Positions 1-10,449 of a DNA stretch of 24,374 nt are shown one piece after another (position 1 is the first letter of the stretch; each line of letters begins with the position of its first letter). Origin of the DNA: a virus; IMG/VR virus record IMGVR_UViG_3300002460_000109, positions 9,153 through 33,526 of that record; one strand, 5' to 3'. The position numbers and the translations under genes are program-made. The notes below the pieces were generated by a model. That model saw only the letters and a program-made list of their open reading frames with translations, made no database searches and had not been told where the DNA came from.

Positions 1-74
1 AACTCACTCTCGTCAATAGGGATAAAATCATCTTGACCAAACCCACGCATAATTTTGAATTTCATTTTCACCAT
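1..74 (-). CDS. Partial hypothetical protein, 5' end only
   Basis: Only the first 24 codons lie in the window; the gene runs off the left edge. The start ATG at 74-72 overlaps the TGA stop of the upstream replication-like gene (68-70), and in-frame GTG (71) and ATG (65) alternatives follow at once. The visible N-terminus reads roughly MVKMKFKIMRGFGQDDFIPI and then turns acidic. I do not recognise the family. The tight overlap suggests an operon with, and translational coupling to, the replication-like gene, so a DNA-replication or early role is plausible but unproven. Confidence 0.55.
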   Translation of the reverse strand, partial: MVKMKFKIMRGFGQDDFIPIDESE

Positions 75-835
75 ACAACATTATTTAGCTTTTCATTTTT
101 CTCATTTTCTTTTGACTTCATTTTGTTGACAAGTTTGACCCAGTTTTCTTTCAACTCATGGGGGGTAGTAATTTGCGCTAAGTAGAGTTTCATTTGATTT
201 ATTTGGGGGAGCACTGAAACGACTTCAAGCACTTTTTCTAATCCATGCTCGGCGATAAGGAAATCACACGCGGCTCTTTGGGTAGTGTTTGAGTAATACG
301 TTTTATTTTTGGAGTCCACTAACTCAAACGCCTTGATAACCTCTGCCCCTATTGTTGTGTATTTGGGTTGCTTCACTGCGACTGGCTTTGCTGTCGCTTT
401 AGAGGTAGAGGTAGAGGTAGAGGTAGAGGTAGAGGAGGGGGTGCCCTGGGGGGGGTCTATAGGGGGTCTACTCGAAGCAGAGAGTTTCCTTATTTTAAGC
501 CGTATTTTCTCTGGTACAGCCTCCCAAGCGTTCTCTATGCCTTTTTTCGTATCCGCCGACCCATTGTTGTGGTATTTCTCCCAATTCTTGAAACACACCC
601 ATCCATCGACATACAAAACCTTGGGCGAAAGCCGGGGGAGCATGGATTTTTCCAAGTCCCTTTCGTCAATCCCACACTCAAAAGCCATCACGCCTAAATC
701 TAATTCATAAACTCCACACCAAGACGAGCGTTCGTTAGTGAGAAGGTAAATAAATAAATACCGATCTAGCGGATTAAGTTTGCGTATCCACTGATCAGAC
801 CACAACTTTGGGTCTATCATTCTTTGTTTTGCCAT
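68..835 (-). CDS. Phage replication initiation / helicase-loader-like protein
   Basis: A 255-residue protein read from ATG at 835. A TTG three codons upstream (844) is possible but less likely. Residues 1-90 (MAKQRMIDPKLWSDQW..., then 'LNPLDRYLFIYLLTNE', 'GVYELDL', 'CFKNWEKYH') resemble the winged-helix N-terminal domain of phage replisome-organiser/DnaD-like proteins, which bind the origin and recruit helicase. A Ser-Thr dipeptide linker made by a hexanucleotide repeat follows near residue 135. A helical C-terminal domain with a Lys/Glu-rich tail ends the protein, as in helicase-binding domains of this family. The gene is transcribed away from the rest of the window, beside a cluster of DnaA-box-like sites. 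No convincing SD lies before the start. The family call is by pattern only; a generic HTH regulator is the alternative. Confidence 0.6.
   Translation of the reverse strand: MAKQRMIDPKLWSDQWIRKLNPLDRYLFIYLLTNERSSWCGVYELDLGVMAFECGIDERDLEKSMLPRLSPKVLYVDGWVCFKNWEKYHNNGSADTKKGIENAWEAVPEKIRLKIRKLSASSRPPIDPPQGTPSSTSTSTSTSTSKATAKPVAVKQPKYTTIGAEVIKAFELVDSKNKTYYSNTTQRAACDFLIAEHGLEKVLEVVSVLPQINQMKLYLAQITTPHELKENWVKLVNKMKSKENEKNEKLNNVVW
401..436 (+). repeat. AGAGGT hexanucleotide tandem repeat coding (Ser-Thr)n linker
   Basis: Five perfect AGAGGT units (401-430) plus a sixth with one change (431-436). On the minus strand they encode alternating Ser-Thr in the replication-like protein. Because the unit is six bases, slippage would lengthen or shorten the interdomain linker without a frameshift. 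Confidence 0.9.
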
Positions 836-855
836 GAAGAACAAAAAAAAGTTCT

Positions 856-910
856 AAGTAGAGAGAAGGGCTCAACGGGTGCTACGTTTCACCCTCCCCA
901 CTCTCTACTT
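856..910 (-). promoter_or_regulatory. Structured leader hairpin ahead of the replication-like gene (attenuator-like)
   Basis: AAGTAGAGAG (856-865) and CTCTCTACTT (901-910) form a perfect 10-bp inverted repeat. Inside it GGGTG and CACCC can pair again around an 8-nt loop. Read on the minus strand, the helix is followed after five bases (AGAAC) by a run of eight T and then GTTC. It therefore resembles an intrinsic terminator or attenuator about 20 nt before the start codon at 835. The transcript from the minus-strand promoter at 989-997 would carry it. I cannot tell a true attenuator from a plain mRNA-stabilising leader. Confidence 0.5.
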
Positions 911-980
911 AAAACTCATTAGTTTAATAACGTAGTAGATTTTGCAAAAAATTGCAAGTAGAACTTATTGAGTTCGCTCT

Positions 981-1054
981 ACAAAATAATTATACCATAT
1001 TTTTAATTGCAAGAATATGTGGTTTTCTCCACATGTGGACAACTTCGTGGACAA
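981..1054. other. Candidate replication origin: AT-rich stretch plus three DnaA-box-like 9-mers
   Basis: TTCTCCACA (1025-1033, + strand), TGTGGACAA (1034-1042, i.e. TTGTCCACA on the minus strand) and CGTGGACAA (1046-1054) are packed into 30 bp. TTGTCCACA is one base from the E. coli box TTATCCACA and equals the box used in actinobacteria. An AT-rich stretch (981-1016) that could unwind lies alongside, next to a replication-like gene. A further TTGTCCACA sits at 1980-1988. This is an origin by arrangement only; the boxes could instead be operators for another protein. Confidence 0.45.
989..997 (-). promoter_or_regulatory. Minus-strand extended -10 promoter (TGGTATAAT)
   Basis: ATTATACCA on the + strand is TGGTATAAT on the minus strand, a full TGn extended -10 within the exact 10-mer ATGGTATAAT shared with three other promoters here. 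The predicted start near 982 gives a roughly 147-nt leader before the replication-like gene. That leader can also fold a GAACT/AGTTC hairpin (about 962-980) and a TTGCAA inverted repeat. No -35 is seen at 17-bp spacing, as expected for an extended -10. Confidence 0.65.
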
Positions 1055-1132
1055 CCAAAAACAAGCCAAGGTAGAATGAACAACAGGAGGGAAACATCTT
1101 TTTTGATTGTGTTTATCACTAATCTAAAAAAC

Positions 1133-1771
1133 ATGTTCGTAAAAAAATGCTACTCGTGCAAAAGCTCTGCGGTAAATCTCTTGAAATCGTCGAATAATTG
1201 GAAAACTCTACACCAATTCTGTGCAAAATGCGGTAAAGACCAAACAAAGCAGGTGCTCAAGGTCAAAAACATGCGTAAATCTTGCAAATTCAAGCCCATA
1301 GCGCGTCGGAAGCCAACAGGTAGAGCTTTGGGTGTCTTTCTCTTAGTTTGGGCGTTTGTGGCAGTTTTGAGCCTTCCTTTCCTGTCCTCCACGGTAACGT
1401 ATGCCGCGGTTCCCGAAGAAAAGATTGTCAACAAGATTGTCAACCAAACACCAGAAGAAATTGCCATCGAGAAAATAAAGTTCTACGCCGCGAAGTATAA
1501 AGTTTCCTCAAAAGAAATGTACGCCGTTGTGAATTGCGAGACTGCCGGAACTTTTGACCCGACGATCCGCTCACGTTACTTGGAAGGCACACCGCGCCAC
1601 GAGAAAAGTTTTGGACTCTCACAAATTCATCTTCGGTCGCATCCTTACGTATCATACGAACAGGCCATAGACGCAGATTTTTCCCTAGATTTTATGGCAA
1701 AGAACTTCGCAAAAGGAAAGCAGGGGATGTGGTCATGCTATAAAATACTCAAGAAACAAGGTATAATATAA
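1133..1771 (+). CDS. Membrane-anchored lytic transglycosylase (SLT-like) with N-terminal zinc ribbon
   Basis: From ATG 1133 the protein has 212 residues. Residues 6-9 and 30-33 are CxxC pairs (CYSC, CAKC) typical of a zinc ribbon. A basic stretch and one membrane segment (about 65-85, 'ALGVFLLVWAFVAVLSLPFL') follow. The rest resembles a peptidoglycan-cleaving SLT transglycosylase: 'NCETAGTFDP' with likely catalytic Glu136, then 'SFGLSQI' (159-165) and 'FMAKNFAKGKQGMWSCY'. It probably cuts the wall from the outer face of the membrane during entry or release. The start is uncertain. A TTG at 1103 lies 12 nt after an AGGAGGG at 1085-1091, and ATG 1271 would give a plain signal peptide without the ribbon. 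TAGAAT at 1072-1077 is a possible -10. The family call is fairly secure, the ribbon fusion less so. Confidence 0.7.
   Translation: MFVKKCYSCKSSAVNLLKSSNNWKTLHQFCAKCGKDQTKQVLKVKNMRKSCKFKPIARRKPTGRALGVFLLVWAFVAVLSLPFLSSTVTYAAVPEEKIVNKIVNQTPEEIAIEKIKFYAAKYKVSSKEMYAVVNCETAGTFDPTIRSRYLEGTPRHEKSFGLSQIHLRSHPYVSYEQAIDADFSLDFMAKNFAKGKQGMWSCYKILKKQGII
1758..1767 (+). promoter_or_regulatory. Promoter -10 (AAGGTATAAT) for a small RNA
   Basis: A consensus TATAAT (1762-1767) overlaps the last codons of the transglycosylase gene. Transcription would start near 1774 and meet a clear terminator at 1861-1882, leaving no room for a protein gene. It lacks the TG of the extended -10 seen elsewhere. Confidence 0.5.
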
Positions 1772-1773
1772 GC

Positions 1774-1882
1774 AAAAGCAATTCTAGACTGCACGCCAGT
1801 ATACGGGTTATAGTTTTAGAAATAGAACAACATTGGCCTCCATGCAACGTCATTCTTGAGCACTCCGCAAGGGGTGTTTTTT
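1774..1882 (+). ncRNA. Putative ~110-nt small RNA
   Basis: The segment is bounded by a -10 and an intrinsic terminator and has no sensible ORF. It can fold as an outer helix TGCA/TGCA (1790-1793 with 1843-1846) plus GCCA/TGGC (1795-1798 with 1834-1837). This encloses a 6-bp hairpin with a GAAA tetraloop (GTTTTA 1813-1818 with TAGAAC 1823-1828) extended by GTT/AAC across a 3-nt bulge. The terminator hairpin follows. I do not recognise a known RNA family. It could be a regulatory sRNA or a decoy. Confidence 0.5.
1861..1882 (+). terminator. Rho-independent terminator with GCAA tetraloop
   Basis: CACTCC (1861-1866), loop GCAA, GGGGTG (1871-1876) form six pairs (one G-U), followed by six T. It ends the putative small RNA and any read-through from the transglycosylase gene. 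Confidence 0.8.
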
Positions 1883-1893
1883 GTTTCATTTTA

Positions 1894-1902
1894 TGGTAAG
1901 AT
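1894..1902 (+). promoter_or_regulatory. Extended -10 promoter (TGGTAAGAT) for a second short transcript
   Basis: TGG-TAAGAT has the TGn element and one change from TATAAT. With the preceding T-run it forms a segment (1874-1902) almost identical to the terminator-promoter junction at 3071-3100. The transcript would start near 1909 and stop at 1978, about 70 nt, with no ORF of note. Confidence 0.45.
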
Positions 1903-1930
1903 GAAGAAGCTTTCTTGTTTATGCGCCAGA

Positions 1931-1978
1931 AAACCGTAATCGTGCCTCTATACGTGAGGGCGTGATTAGCGGTTTTTT
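1931..1978 (+). terminator. Long-stem rho-independent terminator
   Basis: AAACCG/CGGTTT (1931-1936 with 1970-1975), TAATC/GATTA (1937-1941 with 1964-1968) and GCCTC/GAGGGC (1944-1948 with 1956-1961, one bulge) stack into one long helix that ends in six T. The stem may itself be most of a ~70-nt RNA begun at about 1909. Confidence 0.75.
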
Positions 1979-1979
1979 G

Positions 1980-1988
1980 TTGTCCACA
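1980..1988 (+). promoter_or_regulatory. DnaA-box-like 9-mer TTGTCCACA
   Basis: This is an exact copy, inverted, of the 9-mer at 1034-1042. As a lone copy it is weak evidence, but it lies in the intergenic block that shares other signals with the candidate origin. Confidence 0.3.
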
Positions 1989-2028
1989 GCTTTCTTTGAA
2001 AACCCCTATGCACCAAAAATAGGAAGCG

Positions 2029-2034
2029 TATAAT
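2029..2034 (+). promoter_or_regulatory. Promoter -10 (TATAAT) of the structured RNA cluster
   Basis: A perfect TATAAT hexamer just downstream of the terminator at 1931-1978. The predicted start near 2040 coincides with the 5' base of the long helix described next, which supports it. No good -35 is visible at 17 bp. Confidence 0.5.
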
Positions 2035-2039
2035 TAGCA

Positions 2040-2162
2040 AAGCCTCGCTCTTTCGTAAAATCGAAACAACTGTTCATCTCAAGAATTTCTCGCAATAAAG
2101 TTCTTTTTTGATACTACGCAGAACTCACGAGATGGTTGTTTCTCAGACGGAGAGCTTGGTTT
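2040..2162 (+). ncRNA. Structured RNA closed by a long interrupted helix
   Basis: Successive segments pair in register: AAGCC/GGTTT (2040-2044 with 2158-2162), GCTCTTTCGT/ACGGAGAGC (2047-2056 with 2147-2155, one bulge), GAAACAAC/GTTGTTTC (2063-2070 with 2135-2142, perfect) and CATCTC/GAGATG (2075-2080 with 2129-2134, perfect, after a 4-nt 5' bulge). GTTCT/AGAAC (2100-2104 with 2120-2124) sits at the tip. Nearly 30 co-linear pairs over 123 nt are hard to get by chance. It starts at the predicted transcription start and ends 3 nt before a tRNA. I do not recognise the family. It may be part of a larger phage RNA that includes the tRNA-like folds. Confidence 0.6.
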
Positions 2163-2165
2163 ATG

Positions 2166-2233
2166 AATGGATTAGCTCAATGGAAGAGCACCCCCTTAAA
2201 GGGTAGATGCGGGTTCGATGCCCGTATCCATTC
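2166..2233 (+). tRNA. tRNA with shortened anticodon arm
   Basis: The acceptor stem AATGGAT/ATCCATT (2166-2172 with 2226-2232), D arm GCTC-AATGGAA-GAGC (2175-2189, with the GG pair) and T arm GCGGG-TTCGATG-CCCGT (2209-2225, canonical TTCGA loop) are all intact. Between A26 (2190) and position 44 (2204) there are only 13 nt instead of 17. The best arm is CCC-CCTTAAA-GGG, three pairs plus a possible A-U. The 7-nt loop would have C at position 33 instead of U and a nominal TTA anticodon (reading UAA), so I assign no amino acid. No CCA is encoded. It could be a degraded tRNA, a tRNA mimic or an unusual functional tRNA. Confidence 0.6.
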
Positions 2234-2258
2234 GCAGTTCTTTGATGGTGAATAGATT

Positions 2259-2347
2259 ACAGGGATTGTGAGAAGATGGTGACTAGATCGCCTACACTCT
2301 TGGTAGGGTAGCTCCCTAAACGCGTGGGTCGTGTCGCGCATCCCTGT
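2259..2347 (+). ncRNA. Class-II-like tRNA-shaped RNA
   Basis: ACAGGGAT/ATCCCTGT (2259-2266 with 2340-2347) is a perfect 8-bp acceptor-like helix. Inside, CCTAC-ACTCTTG-GTAGG (2291-2307) is a 5-bp stem with a 7-nt loop. TAG-CTCC-CTA (2309-2318) looks like a variable arm. GCGTG/CGCGC (2322-2326 with 2335-2339) is a T-arm-like hairpin abutting the acceptor strand. The D arm is weak (TGA/TCG with a 16-nt loop), the T loop is 8 nt and not TTC, and position 33 is C. It is tRNA-shaped but not a normal tRNA. Confidence 0.35.
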
Positions 2348-2369
2348 ACACCTGTTCATCATAAGAGAG

Positions 2370-2446
2370 TTCCTTGAGAGATGTCTGAGGAATGCGGACA
2401 GTGATCCGCCGTAATGAAATGGAACAAAGCGTAAGTGGCACATTCC
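2370..2446 (+). promoter_or_regulatory. Mutually exclusive hairpins in the leader of the next gene
   Basis: TTCCT (2370-2374) can pair AGGAA (2388-2392), while the overlapping GGAATG (2389-2394) can pair CATTCC (2441-2446). A GCGGA/TCCGC hairpin (2394-2398 with 2405-2409) shares one base with the second helix. Two competing folds just before the start at 2466 are the layout of an RNA switch, but there is no ligand signature I recognise. Confidence 0.3.
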
Positions 2447-2465
2447 GCCTCATTATTGACCACTT

Positions 2466-2735
2466 GTGAAAGTCAAACCTTTCTCCTCAGACGCCTCTTC
2501 GGGAATAAAATATATGCGTTACTACACATCAGAAAAATACATCGACATCGCAAACGAGACCGACATCGCCTTCATGGGTGAATCTCAGTTATGGGTAGTC
2601 TCTTGCCCTCGTTGTTGGTCTGGTGTATGTGTTGGACAAAGACATTGCGCGTATTGTGGGTTCGGTACTTCCAAAGAAAAATTCAAGAAACTCGTTACAA
2701 ATCTGAGAAAAATCTATGCCCCCAGCACAACTTGA
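2466..2735 (+). CDS. Small zinc-ribbon protein
   Basis: Up to 89 residues from GTG 2466. ATG 2514, preceded by GGGA about 8 nt upstream, gives 73 residues and is equally likely. A CxxC pair, 'CPRC', and a second, 'CAYCG', about 12 residues later form a compact zinc ribbon in the C-terminal half, followed by a basic tail. Small ribbons of this type often bind DNA, RNA or transcription machinery, but no specific family is recognised. It is the first protein gene after the RNA cluster and overlaps the next ORF by 20 nt, so it is probably cotranscribed with it. Confidence 0.6.
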   Translation: MKVKPFSSDASSGIKYMRYYTSEKYIDIANETDIAFMGESQLWVVSCPRCWSGVCVGQRHCAYCGFGTSKEKFKKLVTNLRKIYAPSTT

Positions 2736-2904
2736 AAGACTAAACCGCGCTCGATTGGAATTGGTGGCCATAGTTGAATTAAACCCTCCCACAGATTTTT
2801 ACAAGCACATAAACTCTCTCGCAGATGAAATCGAACAACTCATCATTCGGAACTCTAACAGGGATAGCTCTGAAACTTCACAAGGCACCACGGTTAAATC
2901 TTGA
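2716..2904 (+). CDS. Hypothetical small helical protein
   Basis: 62 residues starting with ATG 2716, which overlaps the end of the zinc-ribbon gene. The sequence is mostly amphipathic helix ('LERLNRARLELVAIVEL', 'INSLADEIEQLII') with a polar tail, suggesting a coiled-coil or oligomerising peptide. TGAG lies 8 nt upstream as a weak SD. No family is recognised. Its last 80 nt are also coded in another frame by the ORF at 2825-3004, and which of the two is genuinely expressed there is unclear. Confidence 0.5.
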   Translation: MPPAQLERLNRARLELVAIVELNPPTDFYKHINSLADEIEQLIIRNSNRDSSETSQGTTVKS

Positions 2905-3004
2905 CGCGATCAACGCGAAAATGCCCGCACTGTTTCGGAATAACGGCATGGAGGAGTTTCGCAAGGTTTCGTGGGTTGAGAGGTTGAGTGAGTTAATAGT
3001 TTAG
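2825..3004 (+). CDS. Possible small overlapping gene, 59 aa
   Basis: An ORF of 59 codons from ATG 2825 to TAG 3004, in a different frame from the ORF at 2716-2904 and overlapping it by 80 nt. The part beyond the overlap is protein-like ('LDAINAKMPALFRNNGMEEF', 'VSWVERLSELIV') and fills an otherwise empty gap up to the terminator at 3052. No SD is visible, and an internal ATG at 2921 would give a 27-residue product. A frameshift joining the two ORFs is another reading. Confidence 0.4.
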   Translation: MKSNNSSFGTLTGIALKLHKAPRLNLDAINAKMPALFRNNGMEEFRKVSWVERLSELIV

Positions 3005-3051
3005 GAAACGGCTTATGTGATGTTTAGAAAAAGGGATTGAAAGTACAAACT

Positions 3052-3079
3052 ACACGCATTAGCTCATGGCGTGTTTTTT
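3052..3079 (+). terminator. Rho-independent terminator before the late operon
   Basis: ACACGC (3052-3057) pairs with GCGTGT (3069-3074) across an 11-nt loop, followed by a run of six T. It ends the small-gene unit at 2466-3004 directly before the promoter of the packaging operon. Confidence 0.75.
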
Positions 3080-3091
3080 GTTTTTATTTTA

Positions 3092-3100
3092 TGGTATAAT
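3092..3100 (+). promoter_or_regulatory. Extended -10 promoter (TGGTATAAT) of the packaging operon
   Basis: TGG-TATAAT is a complete extended -10 (TATAAT at 3095-3100). The expected start near 3107 leaves only about 4 nt before ATG 3111, so the terminase small-subunit message would be nearly leaderless. No -35 is visible. The 10-mer ATGGTATAAT recurs at 9098, 16030 and (minus) 989-998. Confidence 0.7.
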
Positions 3101-3110
3101 AGCTAGACCA

Positions 3111-3548
3111 ATGAGCGCAAACGGCAAGACTCCATTCCTAACACCGCAGCAGGAACTCTTCCTTGCTTATTACACAAACCCTAAAAGCGACACATTTTCA
3201 AATGCTTATCAGTCTGCAATCAAGGCAAAATACAAGGAAGATTATGCAAGAAACATAACGGCAGAACTTCCCGACTGGCTACAGGAAAACCTTGGTGACA
3301 TGACTAGACTGAGAAAAGCAGAGAAAAACCTTGATGAAGTACAGAATTTTAATGTAGTAGATGAAGAAGGGAAAGTAGATGTTCCTCTGTTGGAAAAAAG
3401 AATCAAGGTTGATATGTTCTATGCTGAACGGCTGGGGAAACAAAAGTATTCTGCTCGAACTGAACTTACTGGAAAAGATGGTGGTGCAATAGAGTTTTTA
3501 GATAAATCAGATGACGACCTCGCAAAACTCGCCGGACTCAAAGATTAA
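3111..3548 (+). CDS. terS: Terminase small subunit
   Basis: 145 residues from ATG 3111. An upstream in-frame start at 3066 would lie inside the terminator and promoter and is rejected. The N-terminus 'LTPQQELFLAYYTNP' followed by 'SNAYQSAIKAKY' looks like the helix-turn-helix DNA-binding part of phage small terminases, which recognise the packaging site. A charged middle region gives way to 'KYSARTELTGKDGGAIEF', a C-terminal phrase common in these proteins. It overlaps the large subunit by 38 nt, the usual gene order for the packaging complex. Translation appears leaderless. Confidence 0.75.
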   Translation: MSANGKTPFLTPQQELFLAYYTNPKSDTFSNAYQSAIKAKYKEDYARNITAELPDWLQENLGDMTRLRKAEKNLDEVQNFNVVDEEGKVDVPLLEKRIKVDMFYAERLGKQKYSARTELTGKDGGAIEFLDKSDDDLAKLAGLKD

Positions 3549-4992
3549 ACAAGAAGCCTTAGCAGAATTAGCCAAGCGTGAACTTGCCCGGCGCCATTTC
3601 CGCTATTTCTGCTTATACACTTACGACAACTACCTTGAAGGCTGGCACACCAAGCTACTCTGTGATGCACTAGAGCGAGTGGAGAAAGGCGAGATACGCT
3701 TCCTCATCATCGAAGCGCCTCCTCGTCATTCCAAGTCTGTCCACGTTTCTCAACTCTTCCCTGCATGGGTTGTAGGCAAAGAGAAGGACACTGATGTTAT
3801 CGTTGCTTCTTATTCTGGCGATCTAGCTACTGACCAAGGACGAGAAACAAGAAACCTCATTGAGACGCAGAAATACCAGAATGTTTTTAAGACGCGACTC
3901 GCTGAAGACTCTAATGCGAAGGGCAAATGGAATACAAACGGCAAAGGTTCCTACAACGCCGCGGGTGTCGGAGGCTCGATCACGGGAAGGGGTGCTGACT
4001 TCTTCATCATCGACGATGCGTTCAAAGACCGCAAAGAAGCTGACTCCATGATTATTCGTGATAATCAGTGGAAGTGGCTCAAGTCCGTCGCGTATACTCG
4101 CTTGTCTCCTCAAGGCGCAATGATTGTCATGGGTACTCGTTGGCATGAAGATGACATTGTTGGACGATTGACCGTTGGAGAAGAAAAGGAAGACTGGGTG
4201 GATTACTTTGATTACCTTGAAGGCAAACGCGCTAAATGGGTACGGCTTACACTCACCGCAATAGCTGAAAAGGACGAGCCATACCGCAAAAAAGGAGAAG
4301 CACTGTGGCCGGAACGCTTCCCCATTGAAGAACTTAACGACAAGAAACGCATGATGGGGCCTTATGAGTTCGGAGCACTCTACCAAGCCCGTCCTGTTGA
4401 CGACGCAAACCGCAAGTTTAAGAAGGAGTGGTTTCACTATCGCACATGGGCAGAAGTGGAAAAGATGCGAGTGAGGAAGTTCGCCACGATAGACCCAAAC
4501 CTGAAGAAGTCCGATGAGAGTGATTACTGCGGTGTCGCCCGAAACTACGTCAACGAACGCGGAGAATGGCACCTGAGGGCCAACAGATACCGTGTGGACT
4601 CAAGCGAAGTCATAAACCTTATCTTTCTCCTCCACGATGAGAAGTTTGAGAAGATCGGCGTAGAAGAAGGTGCGTTTTCGTATGTTGTTGCTCCTTTTCT
4701 CAAGGAAGAAATGAGGAAGCGCGGTAAGTTCCCCAACGTCGTTCCGTTGAAGCACGGAGGCCGCATGAAAGAGACACGTGTAGAAGGTTTGGTTCCGTGG
4801 TATAATAATGGACAGGTGTGGCACATCGTTGGCGAGTGTGAGGAGCTGGAGGAGGAGCTATTGGTCTTTCCAAGGGGCACACACGACGATGTTTGCGATG
4901 CCACGGCCTACATGGTCGGCTTTGCAGAAAAACCTACGCCACTTATTCAACAAAGACACGCATCAAGACCAAAAGTAAATATCGCTGTATAA
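3511..4992 (+). CDS. terL: Terminase large subunit (packaging ATPase-nuclease)
   Basis: 493 residues, the normal length. It powers DNA translocation into the prohead and cuts the concatemer. The Walker A loop is 'APPRHSKS' (69-76), a variant of the phage PPRHGKS with Ser for the middle Gly. Walker B is 'FFIIDDA' (164-170). 'MGTRWHEDD' (207-215) lies near the coupling region. The RNase-H-like nuclease shows 'TIDPN' (Asp328), a middle acidic patch 'GVEEGAF' and 'HDDVCDATAY' (458-467) supplying the metal ligands. The start overlaps the small subunit by 38 nt, indicating coupling. Unlike typical late operons, the portal does not follow at once; seven small genes intervene. Confidence 0.93.
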   Translation: MTTSQNSPDSKIKQEALAELAKRELARRHFRYFCLYTYDNYLEGWHTKLLCDALERVEKGEIRFLIIEAPPRHSKSVHVSQLFPAWVVGKEKDTDVIVASYSGDLATDQGRETRNLIETQKYQNVFKTRLAEDSNAKGKWNTNGKGSYNAAGVGGSITGRGADFFIIDDAFKDRKEADSMIIRDNQWKWLKSVAYTRLSPQGAMIVMGTRWHEDDIVGRLTVGEEKEDWVDYFDYLEGKRAKWVRLTLTAIAEKDEPYRKKGEALWPERFPIEELNDKKRMMGPYEFGALYQARPVDDANRKFKKEWFHYRTWAEVEKMRVRKFATIDPNLKKSDESDYCGVARNYVNERGEWHLRANRYRVDSSEVINLIFLLHDEKFEKIGVEEGAFSYVVAPFLKEEMRKRGKFPNVVPLKHGGRMKETRVEGLVPWYNNGQVWHIVGECEELEEELLVFPRGTHDDVCDATAYMVGFAEKPTPLIQQRHASRPKVNIAV

Positions 4993-4995
4993 ATT

Positions 4996-5220
4996 ATGAA
5001 AATAACAACGCTCAACTGGGATGACATTGTTCGAAGTTCAATGAAGGAGATTAGAGAAAGGGTTGAAAGTCCAAGTGATTACGTTATTGAGTGGGGTGTA
5101 GTTGGTTGGGGAATATTTCAACAGTTTGTTCCCAAAGCAAAAAATGGGATTACTTATCTTGGCATGAAACATCGTTTCAATGAGGAAATTGAAGATTATC
5201 GTATTATTAAGGCGATATGA
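4996..5220 (+). CDS. Hypothetical protein, 74 aa
   Basis: Starts 4 nt after the terminase stop and ends in an ATGA overlap with the next small gene, so it belongs to the operon. The sequence is mixed alpha/beta with an aromatic core ('DYVIEWGVVGWGIFQQFVP', 'NGITYLGMKHRFNEEIEDY'). No motif or family is recognised. No SD is apparent, and translation probably depends on coupling to the terminase gene. Confidence 0.65.
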   Translation: MKITTLNWDDIVRSSMKEIRERVESPSDYVIEWGVVGWGIFQQFVPKAKNGITYLGMKHRFNEEIEDYRIIKAI

Positions 5221-5370: not shown

Positions 5371-5739
5371 ATGAAAAAGAAACAAGTTGAACCCGAAGAC
5401 AGAAAAGCCGAAGAAGTCGCCAAGAACTTACCCAAAGAACTTCCCCCTAGGGTTTCAGCGTTTCTTGGTATGCCTCAATACTTGAAGGAGCCAAAAAACT
5501 ACGAAAAGATATTCAAGGCAATCTACGAAGCGGGAAACTCCAAATGTTCTCATTCCGATGTTCTTGAGTATTCTGTGTGCAAGAAGTGTGAGGGTGCGAG
5601 ATTCAACAGGATGATGATGATGAAGAAGCTCGGATTTAAGGACGGTCAACAGTATTTAGCGTGGAGGCGTGTACACGAGAACCTCCGAACTTATCACAGA
5701 GACAAATTAGAGAAATATAATGGCATAAAAATAAAATGA
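5371..5739 (+). CDS. Small zinc-finger-like protein
   Basis: 122 residues from ATG 5371, with AGGA about 8 nt upstream as a fair SD. The N-terminal third is Lys/Glu-rich. The middle has 'KCSHSDVLEYSVCKKC', a Cys-His-Cys-Cys set that looks like a zinc finger. The C-terminal part is basic and helical ('RFNRMMMMKKLGFKD', 'RTYHRDKLEKYN'), suggesting nucleic-acid binding. It ends in an ATGA overlap with the SET-domain gene. No named family is recognised. Confidence 0.6.
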   Translation: MKKKQVEPEDRKAEEVAKNLPKELPPRVSAFLGMPQYLKEPKNYEKIFKAIYEAGNSKCSHSDVLEYSVCKKCEGARFNRMMMMKKLGFKDGQQYLAWRRVHENLRTYHRDKLEKYNGIKIK

Positions 5740-6158
5740 ATAGCCAAGAACATACCGCAGCAACATTAAACACCATCGTCAACGTGCGTATCGCCCCGTC
5801 AAAGATACACGGAGTCGGTGTCTTTGCCCTCCGAGACTTACAAGCCGGACGCAAACTTTACCTTGATGGTATTCCACAGGCTTTCCGAATATCTAAGGGA
5901 AATCTCTCAAAGCTATTCCCCGAAGTGAGGGCGCTGCTTACCGAGCGTTGGCCTCGTGTGTTCGTGGATTCTGTTGTTGCTTACCCTGATGCTTGTTATC
6001 AAGCCTATGCGAATCACTCTGAGGACTACAACTACGACTGCATCACGGATAAGCTGATTCAGGATGTGAAGAAGGACGAAGAAATTACAGAGAACTATCG
6101 TCATATCGAAGGTTGGGAAAGTGCTCATCCTTGGCTTGCAGAGAAAAAAGAGGTATAA
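5736..6158 (+). CDS. SET-domain protein (putative protein lysine methyltransferase)
   Basis: 140 residues. The SET signatures appear in order: 'RIAPSKIHGVGVFALRDL' (18-35) with the GxG turn that binds S-adenosylmethionine, 'YANHSEDYN' (91-99) matching the NHS core, and 'VKKDEEITENY' (111-121) matching the GEEI-T-x-x-Y end where a catalytic Tyr sits. The length is that of a minimal SET domain without pre- or post-SET cysteines. SET enzymes methylate lysines on proteins; the target here is unknown and could be a virion or a host protein. The start overlaps the upstream stop (ATGA), and the TAA stop lies inside the next promoter's -10. Activity is inferred from motifs only. Confidence 0.75.
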   Translation: MNSQEHTAATLNTIVNVRIAPSKIHGVGVFALRDLQAGRKLYLDGIPQAFRISKGNLSKLFPEVRALLTERWPRVFVDSVVAYPDACYQAYANHSEDYNYDCITDKLIQDVKKDEEITENYRHIEGWESAHPWLAEKKEV

Positions 6159-6594: not shown

Positions 6595-6815
6595 ATCACC
6601 AATGCGTAAAGTGTAAGGCAACATATCAAAGTGATGATGTTGATGCGTATTTGTGTCTCTCATGCACAGAGGCAAAGAAAGCCATTGCCGCACAAATTGA
6701 CGCGCAATTCGCCAATCGCCCAAGGTCAGAGCCAACTTCCGAACTGAGGCAGTTTGAGGCTAGCTCAACTACGAGGATGGTTGATGGAAGACAAGTAACA
6801 ATCGGACGCGCATGA
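6591..6815 (+). CDS. Small zinc-ribbon protein, 74 aa
   Basis: The N-terminal 26 residues hold two CxxC pairs, 'CVKC' (5-8) and 'CLSC' (22-25), spaced as in a zinc ribbon. A helical, Ala-rich middle and a polar tail follow. ATGA overlaps at both ends fix the start and show coupling. The function is unknown; nucleic-acid or protein binding is likely for such ribbons. Confidence 0.65.
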   Translation: MNHQCVKCKATYQSDDVDAYLCLSCTEAKKAIAAQIDAQFANRPRSEPTSELRQFEASSTTRMVDGRQVTIGRA

Positions 6816-7036
6816 AAGCAGTAATTGAAATTATGGGCAAGAAATACGAAGGGGAAGGTGCAACTCCCCGTGAGGCTATTGCCAACATTCCGTTCAAGGG
6901 ATTTGCTCGTTCAATGTCCAAGCTCACTGTAGATAAGAAAACTATTATTCTTGCTCCTATGCAGACAATGAGACTGTTTGCTCCAAATCCAACGATCAAG
7001 GAAGTTAACGTAAAATCCATTTCGCTAAGATTCTAA
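6812..7036 (+). CDS. Hypothetical protein, 74 aa
   Basis: ATGA overlap with the upstream stop and a 3-nt gap to the portal. The protein reads as a small beta-rich fold ('KAVIEIMGKKYEGEGATPRE', 'LTVDKKTIILAPMQTMRLF', 'VNVKSISLRF'). No family is recognised. Its position next to the portal suggests a packaging or head-assembly accessory, but that is position only. Confidence 0.6.
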   Translation: MKAVIEIMGKKYEGEGATPREAIANIPFKGFARSMSKLTVDKKTIILAPMQTMRLFAPNPTIKEVNVKSISLRF

Positions 7037-7039
7037 TCT

Positions 7040-8851
7040 ATGTTCCCTGAAAACATCTTCCAGTATATAACCGCCGAAGAGAATAAGTTTGACACTGAAG
7101 AGGTGTCCGTTGGTTCAAATTGGAGATGGAACTTCAAAACTCACACACAAATGATCTTCCACCTCAAGAACGGCGTGTTCTTTCAAGGTGAAAACGACTG
7201 GATGAGAGCGTTCAAGAACATCATGGAACCTGTCCTTTCTTTGGCGTACTGGACTGAGGACATCGAGGTAAAAGATGTGGTGTTCTTCATTGAAAACATG
7301 CCGGGACGCGTGGCTTCATTCTTCATCAAGAAATATCACGATGAGGTTTACGTTCGCGAACATGACTTGGATGAGATGTTTGACGAGATAACCGAGTCCG
7401 ATGTGGACTATGGTGGTGTTCTTGTCGAAATGATTTCCGAGAAACGTCCCAAGGTACTTCCACTTCCTCGGGTAGCGTTCTGCGACCAAACAGAGATGAT
7501 GGGTGGCCCGATAGGATTCAAGCTCTATCTCTCTCCTGCGAAACTCCGCCAGATGGAAAAGTCTGGCTGGTTCAAGAAAGAGAACGGTGCTACGGGAACG
7601 GCTAGCGAACTCATTGACTTAGCGACATTTGAGAAAACTGCCGACGGACAACTTGGGCAGAAAAAGAACACCACAACAGGCAAACAGATTGAGGTGTATA
7701 TCGTTCGTGGAGACTTGCCGCTTAGCTACCTTGACGACGGCGGAGACAAAGAAACAATGGAGGGACAACTGCAAATCGTTGCTTTTTATACTGACAAAGA
7801 CAAGAAAAAACAATACTTCACCTGCTATCGAAAGAAAGAGGACGAGGGGTCAATCCTCTCCTTCTCCTCACAGAAAATCACTGGTCGAGCACTTGGCCGT
7901 GGATGGGGAGAGCGTATGTTACATCCTCAGATTTGGACAAACTTCTTGGAGATTCACAAAACACAGATGCTCCAAGCAGCGGCTAAGGTTCCGTTGTGGA
8001 CTGACGACGAGACATTTGCGAACAGACATCAGGTTCAGGATATGGAAAATCTTGAGCTTATGACACTCAAGGAGGGTCGTCGTGTTGGACAAGTCCCGAC
8101 AGCGGCAACCGCAAACATCGCCCTTTTCAAAGATGGAGTGAACTCATGGTTTGAATACGCACAGTACGCAGGAGCCGCTTTTGACCCGATGATGGGCAAA
8201 GAGGCCAATTCAGGTACGACGTTCCGAGGTCAAGACCAAATCGTGCAACAAGGTCGTGGCCCACATGACCGACTCCGTGGCAAACGTGCTAAGTTCATCG
8301 AGGAGATTTACCGCAAGCGCATAATCCCCGATATTAAGAAAGAGATACTGAAAGGTAAGAAGTTCTTGGCCACTCTTTCTGGTGATGAGATGCTGTGGGT
8401 CTGTGATGAGCTGGCAATCAAGGAATGGAACAAGAACTACGCCAACAAGGTCATTGATGGACAGGATTTTGCTGAGGGTGAAAAAGAAGCGTGGATGGAA
8501 CAGTGGAAGCAGGAGTTCAAGAAGAAGGGTAGTCAGCACTTGCTCAAGATACTTGAAAAGGAGTTCGAGGGGATCGAATTACGGGCAGGTATCAACGTGG
8601 CGGGGAAACAGAAAGATCTCAAAGCATTATCCGACAAGGTTCTTGCTATCTTCCAGCTTGTCATATCTAACCCTGCGGCGTTTCAACAGGGTATGCAGGT
8701 TCCGGGCATGTCAGCGGCATTTGATAACATTTTGGAGTATTCTGGCGTGAATAAGGCTGACTTCTACGGCTTTACGCAGAAACTCGCACAACAACCGCAA
8801 ATGCCACAACAGCAACCCGCCCAATTACCAGCTCAAGCAATGGCACTGTGA
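7040..8851 (+). CDS. Portal protein
   Basis: 603 residues, in the portal size range, downstream of terminase and upstream of scaffold and capsid. The N-terminal part ('NGVFFQGENDWMRAFKNIMEPVLSLAYW') and the central section ('AAKVPLWTDDETFANRHQVQ', 'SGTTFRGQDQIVQQGRGPHD') read like the clip/wing and helical stem regions of phage portals. The C-terminal end is a Gln/Pro-rich tail. It forms the dodecameric DNA channel at the capsid vertex. No enzymatic motif applies, so the call rests on size, order and general resemblance. It ends in a GTGA overlap with the next gene. Confidence 0.75.
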   Translation: MFPENIFQYITAEENKFDTEEVSVGSNWRWNFKTHTQMIFHLKNGVFFQGENDWMRAFKNIMEPVLSLAYWTEDIEVKDVVFFIENMPGRVASFFIKKYHDEVYVREHDLDEMFDEITESDVDYGGVLVEMISEKRPKVLPLPRVAFCDQTEMMGGPIGFKLYLSPAKLRQMEKSGWFKKENGATGTASELIDLATFEKTADGQLGQKKNTTTGKQIEVYIVRGDLPLSYLDDGGDKETMEGQLQIVAFYTDKDKKKQYFTCYRKKEDEGSILSFSSQKITGRALGRGWGERMLHPQIWTNFLEIHKTQMLQAAAKVPLWTDDETFANRHQVQDMENLELMTLKEGRRVGQVPTAATANIALFKDGVNSWFEYAQYAGAAFDPMMGKEANSGTTFRGQDQIVQQGRGPHDRLRGKRAKFIEEIYRKRIIPDIKKEILKGKKFLATLSGDEMLWVCDELAIKEWNKNYANKVIDGQDFAEGEKEAWMEQWKQEFKKKGSQHLLKILEKEFEGIELRAGINVAGKQKDLKALSDKVLAIFQLVISNPAAFQQGMQVPGMSAAFDNILEYSGVNKADFYGFTQKLAQQPQMPQQQPAQLPAQAMAL

Positions 8852-9113: not shown

Positions 9114-9572
9114 ATGGTCAATAAAGAAAAATTTGTTCTCCCAACAATCATAGCTCTGTTAGCTGTTATCGTTGGACTGTTCGCTTTTGTCAGTAATGTT
9201 CGTCCGGCTGGTGCAAGTGCGCCTGTTTATGAGTCTAATTATTCAACGACAACTCGTTCTACCGATGCTTCCGCAACGTATAGCAGCAGGGTGTGCACAG
9301 GTTCGTGTCAGATCGCTTCGATCATCATAGTTCAGCCGGCGACAGCAGGTTATCTTCGTTTTTGGGACGCAACGACCACTGCAACATCGACCATTCAAAG
9401 TGATGTAGCAAGCTCCACCGCCTCGCTCACACTTGGAAAAGCTATTGCCAGAGTTTTGAGTGCATCAGACGTGTTCGGATTCTTGCAGATAGACGCGACG
9501 ATGAATAACGGTATCGTGCTTGAGACTTCCACTGGATTTGATGGCGAGTATATTATTACTTGGAAGAAATAA
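9114..9572 (+). CDS. Exported Ser/Thr-rich protein, 152 aa
   Basis: The N-terminus is a Sec signal or anchor: basic residues, a hydrophobic core ('LPTIIALLAVIVGLFAF', about 8-25) and 'PAGASA' as a possible cleavage site near 36. The mature part is Ser/Thr/Ala-rich, beta-like ('YLRFWDATTTATSTIQ') with a close Cys pair ('CTGSC') that could form a disulfide outside the cell. I do not recognise the family. It is the first gene of a self-contained cassette inside the virion operon and appears to be translated from a leaderless mRNA. Surface display or superinfection exclusion are possible roles, unproven. Confidence 0.65.
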   Translation: MVNKEKFVLPTIIALLAVIVGLFAFVSNVRPAGASAPVYESNYSTTTRSTDASATYSSRVCTGSCQIASIIIVQPATAGYLRFWDATTTATSTIQSDVASSTASLTLGKAIARVLSASDVFGFLQIDATMNNGIVLETSTGFDGEYIITWKK

Positions 9573-10254: not shown

Positions 10255-10275
10255 AACTTTGACAACTGAATAGCG

Positions 10276-10336
10276 GAAACGACCAAACACTTGCGGCATC
10301 CGATCGGGGCTACAAGGGAAGTTTCTTGGTCGTTTC
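10276..10336 (+). promoter_or_regulatory. Perfect 11-bp hairpin in the 3' untranslated region
   Basis: GAAACGACCAA (10276-10286) and TTGGTCGTTTC (10326-10336) are perfect inverted repeats. The loop holds an inner CTTG/CAAG helix (10290-10293 with 10313-10316) and a CCGATCGG palindrome (10300-10307). It lies just before the terminator, so it may protect the transcript end or be a protein-binding or processing site. The whole 10255-10449 gap has no convincing gene. A TTGACA at 10259-10264 lacks a matching -10. Confidence 0.6.
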
Positions 10337-10351
10337 TTCTCTTGTTGTTCC

Positions 10352-10380
10352 AACCGGGTGTCGCAAGGCACTCGGTTTTT
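10352..10380 (+). terminator. Strong rho-independent terminator with GCAA loop
   Basis: AACCGGGTGTC (10352-10362) pairs with GGCACTCGGTT (10367-10377) over an 11-bp stem capped by GCAA, running into five T. It closes the cassette begun at 9099. Scaffold and capsid genes downstream would need read-through or another promoter that I cannot identify clearly. Confidence 0.88.
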
Positions 10381-10449
10381 GGTTATGCCACCACAAAAGG
10401 CGAATATGTTTATTCTTGTACATTTAACACAAGAGAACTAAAACTAGTT

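Follow-up and report, generated by a model that had tools for sequence, protein, structure and literature searches.

The tRNA cluster of phage T4 includes two stable structured RNAs without a known function, 'RNA C' and 'RNA D', that are co-transcribed with the phage tRNAs, and the phage RNA GOLLD carries linker tRNAs. GOLLD and ROOL are phage noncoding RNAs that adjoin or contain a tRNA, and many GOLLD RNAs exceed 800 nt (PMC12286853). The theta (HDV-like) ribozymes of phages are structured RNAs directly 3' of a tRNA, which is sometimes a suppressor tRNA (PMC10879173).

The locus described here lies between a lytic transglycosylase-like gene (tg) and a small Cys-ribbon ORF in a 24,374-nucleotide stretch of phage DNA, hereafter the window, which comprises positions 9153–33526 of a 33,526-base IMG/VR virus record. 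It is likewise a phage noncoding RNA region with a tRNA, and it has the tRNA-adjacent phage location that serves as a criterion for GOLLD and ROOL. However, it measures approximately 420 nt, compared with more than 800 nt for many GOLLD RNAs, and no ornate multi-domain core was recognised. When positions 1700–3120 were searched with cmscan against all 4227 Rfam families, tRNA was the only match at E<=5, and a search at the gathering cut-off likewise gave tRNA alone; the locus is thus not identified as GOLLD or ROOL. An earlier note on this DNA had described a structured-RNA locus and a possible relative of GOLLD or ROOL; noncoding structure around a tRNA is supported by the present analysis, but the kinship is not. 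There is also no match to tmRNA at the locus by either ARAGORN or Rfam.

As with the theta ribozymes, structured RNA follows the tRNA on its 3' side. That class is characterized by a P1-P2-P3-P4 double pseudoknot, a catalytic C, and a cleavage site at most 5 nt from the tRNA 3' end; a simple home-made descriptor, uncalibrated on known members, gave 0 matches in 2201–2470 and saw no double-pseudoknot arrangement. The locus would resemble T4 'RNA C' and 'RNA D' in being stable structured RNA co-transcribed with a phage tRNA. Comparison of the locus with 50,697 phage records by blastn returned short chance matches only. Single-sequence covariance models of both helices flanking the tRNA, searched over approximately 829 kb of related phage loci, recovered the window itself and one trivial antisense match, and a homologue of these helices was found neither in the related loci nor in the phage records.

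The noncoding gap and its surroundings

The phage is of the tailed dsDNA type. Its plus strand carries small and large terminase, portal-like, capsid and tail genes; genes of replication and recombination type lie to the left on the minus strand. The gene at 7040–8851 has no Pfam or PHROG match, and its position suggests that it encodes the portal. It has about 50 relatives in IMG/VR and none among the 50,697 phage records, while the terminase is at most 38% identical to named phages among the matches listed; the host has therefore probably not been cultivated or sampled. Alignments of the tg and terminase proteins against GTDB genomes yielded no relatives. Just upstream of the portal-like gene, a 74-aa ORF (6812–7040) has its TAA stop one codon ahead of the portal-like ATG and in the same frame, such that readthrough of this single TAA would fuse the two. 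The structural region also encodes a small SET-domain-like protein (5736–6158) that scores 22.2 bits, just below the Pfam cut-off of 22.4.

The gap between the two genes (1772–2465) is noncoding and holds one real tRNA gene between two strong hairpins (Table 1). Its sole ORF of at least 60 aa lies on the minus strand, spans 88 aa and matches no Pfam or PHROG family, in agreement with the earlier reading that these roughly 700 bases carry no convincing protein gene. The tg product is 45% identical over 135 aa to the protein encoded at 5001–5375 of L028, a locus of another phage, and this homologue matches the Pfam SLT family (E 1.4e-07). Relatives of the zinc-ribbon neighbour were not found when it was used as bait.

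Table 1. Features of the tRNA locus and its flanks (window coordinates; z, folding stability relative to shuffled sequences)
Feature	Position	Strand	Evidence or remark
Lytic transglycosylase-like gene (tg)	1007..1771	+	C-terminal half homologous to SLT-domain protein of L028
Rho-independent terminator downstream of tg	1858..1882	+	Scan and fold: 9 bp, -12.3 kcal/mol, U-tract
Promoter-like GGTAAGAT (TATGGTAAGAT)	1895..1902	+	One change from recurrent TATGGTATAAT (motif list)
Long, strong terminator-like hairpin, then U-tract	1929..1979	+	-24.7 kcal/mol, z -4.25
TATAAT -10-like box	2029..2034	+	Sequence, motif list
Leader hairpin, interrupted long helix	2041..2162	+	-33.7 kcal/mol, z -2.75
tRNA gene	2165..2235	+	ARAGORN; Rfam RF00005, 44.4 bits; suboptimal folds
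Trailer hairpin, long-range helix of 5 + 11 + 8–9 bp	2239..2368	+	-47.7 kcal/mol, z -3.64
Short, mutually competing hairpins	2366..2462	+	z -1.77
Small Cys-ribbon ORF	2466..2735	+	Start uncertain (2466 GTG or 2514 ATG); Zn_ribbon_3 only E 0.056
Terminator-like hairpin closing short operon, before terminase promoter (TATAAT at 3095)	3052..3075	+	Fold -11.5 kcal/mol, sequence, motif

A generic sigma-70 scan of window positions 1–5000 showed no excess of promoters (5 found, 7.4 expected in shuffles), and we therefore base promoter assignments on the phage's own recurring motif. This promoter-like motif of the record is TATGGTATAAT, and several genes start a few bases downstream of it (motif list). 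Three -10 promoters had been proposed at 1762, 1897 and 2029. Exact TATAAT boxes do occur at 1762 and 2029, and TATGGTAAGAT at 1892–1902 is the TATGGTATAAT motif with one change. The 2029 box stands at the beginning of the folded stretch and lacks the TGG that usually precedes the motif in this phage. The two terminators claimed for the gap are also present as strong hairpins in both scan and folds, and the one at 1929–1979 would terminate an RNA of about 70 nt begun near 1905.

The pairing of a terminator with a promoter occurs twice in the window, at 1874–1902 and 3067–3100 (GTGTTTTTTGTTT..ATTTTATGGTAWRAT). In both units an extended -10 promoter directly follows the terminator, and several genes start 5–10 nt past the -10.

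A tRNA with an abnormal anticodon arm

The tRNA seen at 2166–2233 in the earlier note is real, and both ARAGORN and the Rfam covariance model place it at 2165–2235, with a score well above the RF00005 gathering cut-off of 29 bits. The acceptor stem (AAUGGAU/AUCCAUU, 7 bp), D-arm (GCUC/GAGC) and T-arm (GCGGG-UUCGAUG-CCCGU) are canonical. Like the tRNA genes and arrays of other phages (RF00005), it thus folds as a genuine tRNA, complete with D-arm, T-arm and 7-bp acceptor, is intergenic, and has its own promoter-like box. It differs from them in being a single tRNA with an anticodon stem of 3–4 bp, an ambiguous anticodon, no CCA, and very stable flanking hairpins.

The anticodon stem (ACCC/GGGU at best, with loop CCUUAAA) is shortened in every near-optimal fold listed, and GAGC to GGUUCGA measures 22 bases compared with 26 expected (our own count, standard tRNA numbering). 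The combination of a 5-bp anticodon stem and a 7-nt loop with U33 is not found in this tRNA. With the 4-bp stem, the anticodon is UUA, the complement of the stop codon UAA, and position 33 is C; if U33 is kept, the anticodon is UAA (Leu), and only two standard pairs are left in the stem. ARAGORN accordingly assigns no anticodon ('(ta)', 'Stop|Leu'). In addition, G-1 faces C73, as in tRNA-His, and CCA is not encoded, the next three bases being GCA. Pattern scans of IMG/VR for tRNAs with this anticodon loop returned only unrelated ordinary tRNA-Lys(CTT) and one tRNA-Leu(TAA) from other phages.

One interpretation of the arm is a functional ochre-suppressor tRNA whose UUA anticodon reads UAA in recoding or stop readthrough. 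The best-paired arm does present UUA in its loop, and ARAGORN in metazoan-mitochondrial mode gives Stop(tta). However, we regard a working suppressor as highly improbable because TAA is the stop codon of 11 of the 32 ORFs listed, the large terminase gene among them, and these frames require no suppression. Such a tRNA would also have C at position 33, where U is nearly universal, and the theta-ribozyme-like motif that is frequent with phage suppressor tRNAs (PMC10879173) was not seen downstream by the uncalibrated descriptor. Given the short anticodon stem, the ambiguous anticodon and the absence of an encoded CCA, the tRNA appears to be either a divergent, non-standard one or one that is losing its decoding function, and the latter is more likely.

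Structure on either side of the tRNA

The helix of nearly 30 pairs noted at 2040–2162 is present at 2041–2162, where the minimum free energy (MFE) fold contains 39 pairs interrupted by bulges. Its segments are AAGCC..GGUUU, GCUCUUUCG..CGGAGAGC, GAAACAAC..GUUGUUUC and CAUCUC..GAGAUG, and only 6 of 500 dinucleotide shuffles are as stable. For the trailer (2239–2368) a single shuffle of 500 reaches the stability of the native sequence. Together, the 2041–2365 stretch has a z of -4.4 relative to shuffles, and the tile at 2001–2400 (z -4.2) ranks second lowest of the roughly sixty 400-nt tiles in the window. Tiles of 150 nt inside the stretch are unremarkable (z -0.2 to -2.6) because the signal sits in the long-range helices.

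These values bear on whether the gap is simply an intergenic stretch with a single tRNA, its other folds reflecting ordinary base composition. The 150-nt tiles are consistent with such a chance origin, as is the comparable folding seen in other regions of the window. Yet the leader and trailer domains surpass 494 and 499 of their 500 shuffles, respectively, and the rank of the 400-nt tile points the same way; we consider chance very unlikely.

Not all of the structure proposed for the region is convincing. The competing hairpins described at 2370–2446 fall in a segment (2366–2462) that reaches only z -1.8. The second tRNA-shaped fold at 2259–2347 is a long helix instead, and we reject it as a tRNA: its interior (2267–2339, the "cloverleaf") is no more stable than shuffles (z 0.0), the covariance search with cmscan and Rfam found no tRNA match at E<=5, and ARAGORN proposes 2260–2347 only when the threshold is lowered to 74%, a level of noise at which 50 "tRNAs" appear in the window. 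As this fold lacks a tRNA signal and has an interior no better folded than shuffles, the locus has one tRNA and not two.

Related phages and the interpretation of the locus

L028 (record G001) was matched in a single-protein search with tg. Approximately 200 nt past the stop codon of its tg homologue are five canonical tRNAs (His-Pro-Leu-Arg-Gln), and a terminator and a GGTATACT promoter-like box lie between. None of the other G001 proteins matches this phage, and among the terminase and portal relatives scanned, no other one carries a tRNA in the tg-tRNA slot. The layout common to the window and this one other phage may be either a shared module or a coincidence.

It is conceivable that a larger array, as in L028, was once present and has been reduced to one damaged tRNA, with the others surviving as folded debris. 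The normal five-tRNA array behind a homologous tg fits this history, as do the shortened anticodon arm, the GCA where CCA is expected, and a 7–8 bp acceptor-like stem in the second fold. However, no tRNA sequence signal is recognisable in the flanking folds (Rfam at E<=5; relaxed ARAGORN), unusually stable helices are kept that drifting debris should lose, and intermediate relatives are absent. We therefore judge an array remnant unlikely.

The leader of L028 can itself form a helix around a tRNA: read directly, GAGGTGTCTTT (5578–5588) can pair over 11 bases with AAAGACATCTC in the trailer (5667–5677), enclosing tRNA-His. This helix competes with a terminator hairpin between tRNA-His and the next four tRNAs, and the MFE fold of the whole leader does not select it. 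The sequence of L028:5578–5690 would be compatible with a tRNA-containing attenuator, and it may parallel the long helix around a tRNA-sized insert.

Another relative, L010 (terminase 40% and small terminase subunit, tss, 42% identical), has a noncoding stretch of approximately 340 nt at 245–590, which directly follows a TATAAT and precedes a Cys-ribbon ORF, tss and terminase. It is strongly folded (z -4.1), with a long-range helix of 23 bp (329–351/467–489, G-U allowed), and shows no sequence similarity to the window.

This unrelated-looking but equally structured stretch in the corresponding slot is one reason to consider that the locus encodes a structured phage RNA of a new class, approximately 320–420 nt long, in which the two long helices and the embedded tRNA domain form one functional RNA, comparable to GOLLD in kind and not in sequence. 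The stability of 2041–2365, the promoter-like box at its start, and the lack of any Rfam match beyond tRNA are also as expected of such a class. Against it, neither helix has a homologue in the collections searched, the second fold has an interior no more stable than shuffles, the tRNA looks ordinary and processable except for its anticodon arm, and structured noncoding stretches of differing forms occur in many of these phages. On balance we find a new class rather unlikely. A still less likely version of it, which we would put forward only with considerable doubt, has a tRNA-like, non-decoding domain that is kept uncut between the helices for a non-translational use, for example as a decoy for a host tRNA-binding or tRNA-cleaving factor.

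Other structured stretches were observed in this group. L009:28–205 contains a long-range helix of approximately 20 bp (GGTGAGTTTGTGGGGG../..CCCCTCCACAAGCTCATC) around approximately 120 nt; it is flanked by a direct repeat, AACCAATTAAATAAATAAAGA, with a third copy before a gene, and has no Rfam match at the gathering cut-off. Two relatives (L064:720–1200, also L063) share an approximately 480-nt structured noncoding stretch directly upstream of the portal-like gene, again with no Rfam match. The intergenic array at L050:2950–3470 (minus strand) consists of palindromic TACCAAGCAGAA / TTCTGCTTGGTA repeats that form very strong hairpins. In the window itself, a structured leader (10285–10395, plus strand) between 10254 and the capsid-region genes has a 13-bp long-range helix (CTTGCGGCATCCG/CGGGTGTCGCAAG). 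A terminator-like hairpin (ACCGGGTG..CACTCGGT-TTTT) overlaps this helix, an arrangement like that of an antiterminator/terminator switch; 10255–10447 has a z of -4.5.

With moderate confidence, we interpret the locus as the tRNA locus of a phage with a probably uncultivated host, in which a structured leader and trailer surround an atypical and possibly decaying tRNA. This reading draws on the detection of the tRNA by two methods, the absence of any other Rfam family, the tg and tRNA array of L028, the terminators, the recurring promoter motif and the stability of the hairpins. However, the tg-tRNA layout is shared with one other phage only, and a tRNA leader and trailer would not require hairpins as long and as stable as those on either side here.

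Under the tRNA-locus interpretation, the TATAAT at 2029 probably drives transcription from a start near 2041, about 7 nt past the box and at the foot of the 2041–2162 helix, and the two upstream terminators would insulate the transcript from upstream transcription. It is plausible that one long transcript runs to the next convincing terminator, judged by eye and by folding, at approximately 3052–3075. Such a transcript would contain, in order, the leader hairpin, one tRNA, the trailer hairpin and a small three-ORF operon, ending at the terminator near 3075. Host tRNA-processing enzymes would excise the tRNA. The leader and trailer hairpins would shield the precursor from nucleases and present the processing sites, and they would cap the mRNA fragment remaining after excision.

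If the locus is ordinary in this sense, it is another phage tRNA locus and a useful example of an atypical tRNA. Phage evasion of retrons with tRNAs is the subject of one report (PMC11555353). Should the tRNA-like domain prove non-decoding and retained, the locus would agree with an emerging picture in which phage tRNAs also have a part in defence and counter-defence, and it would offer a testable tRNA-shaped decoy.
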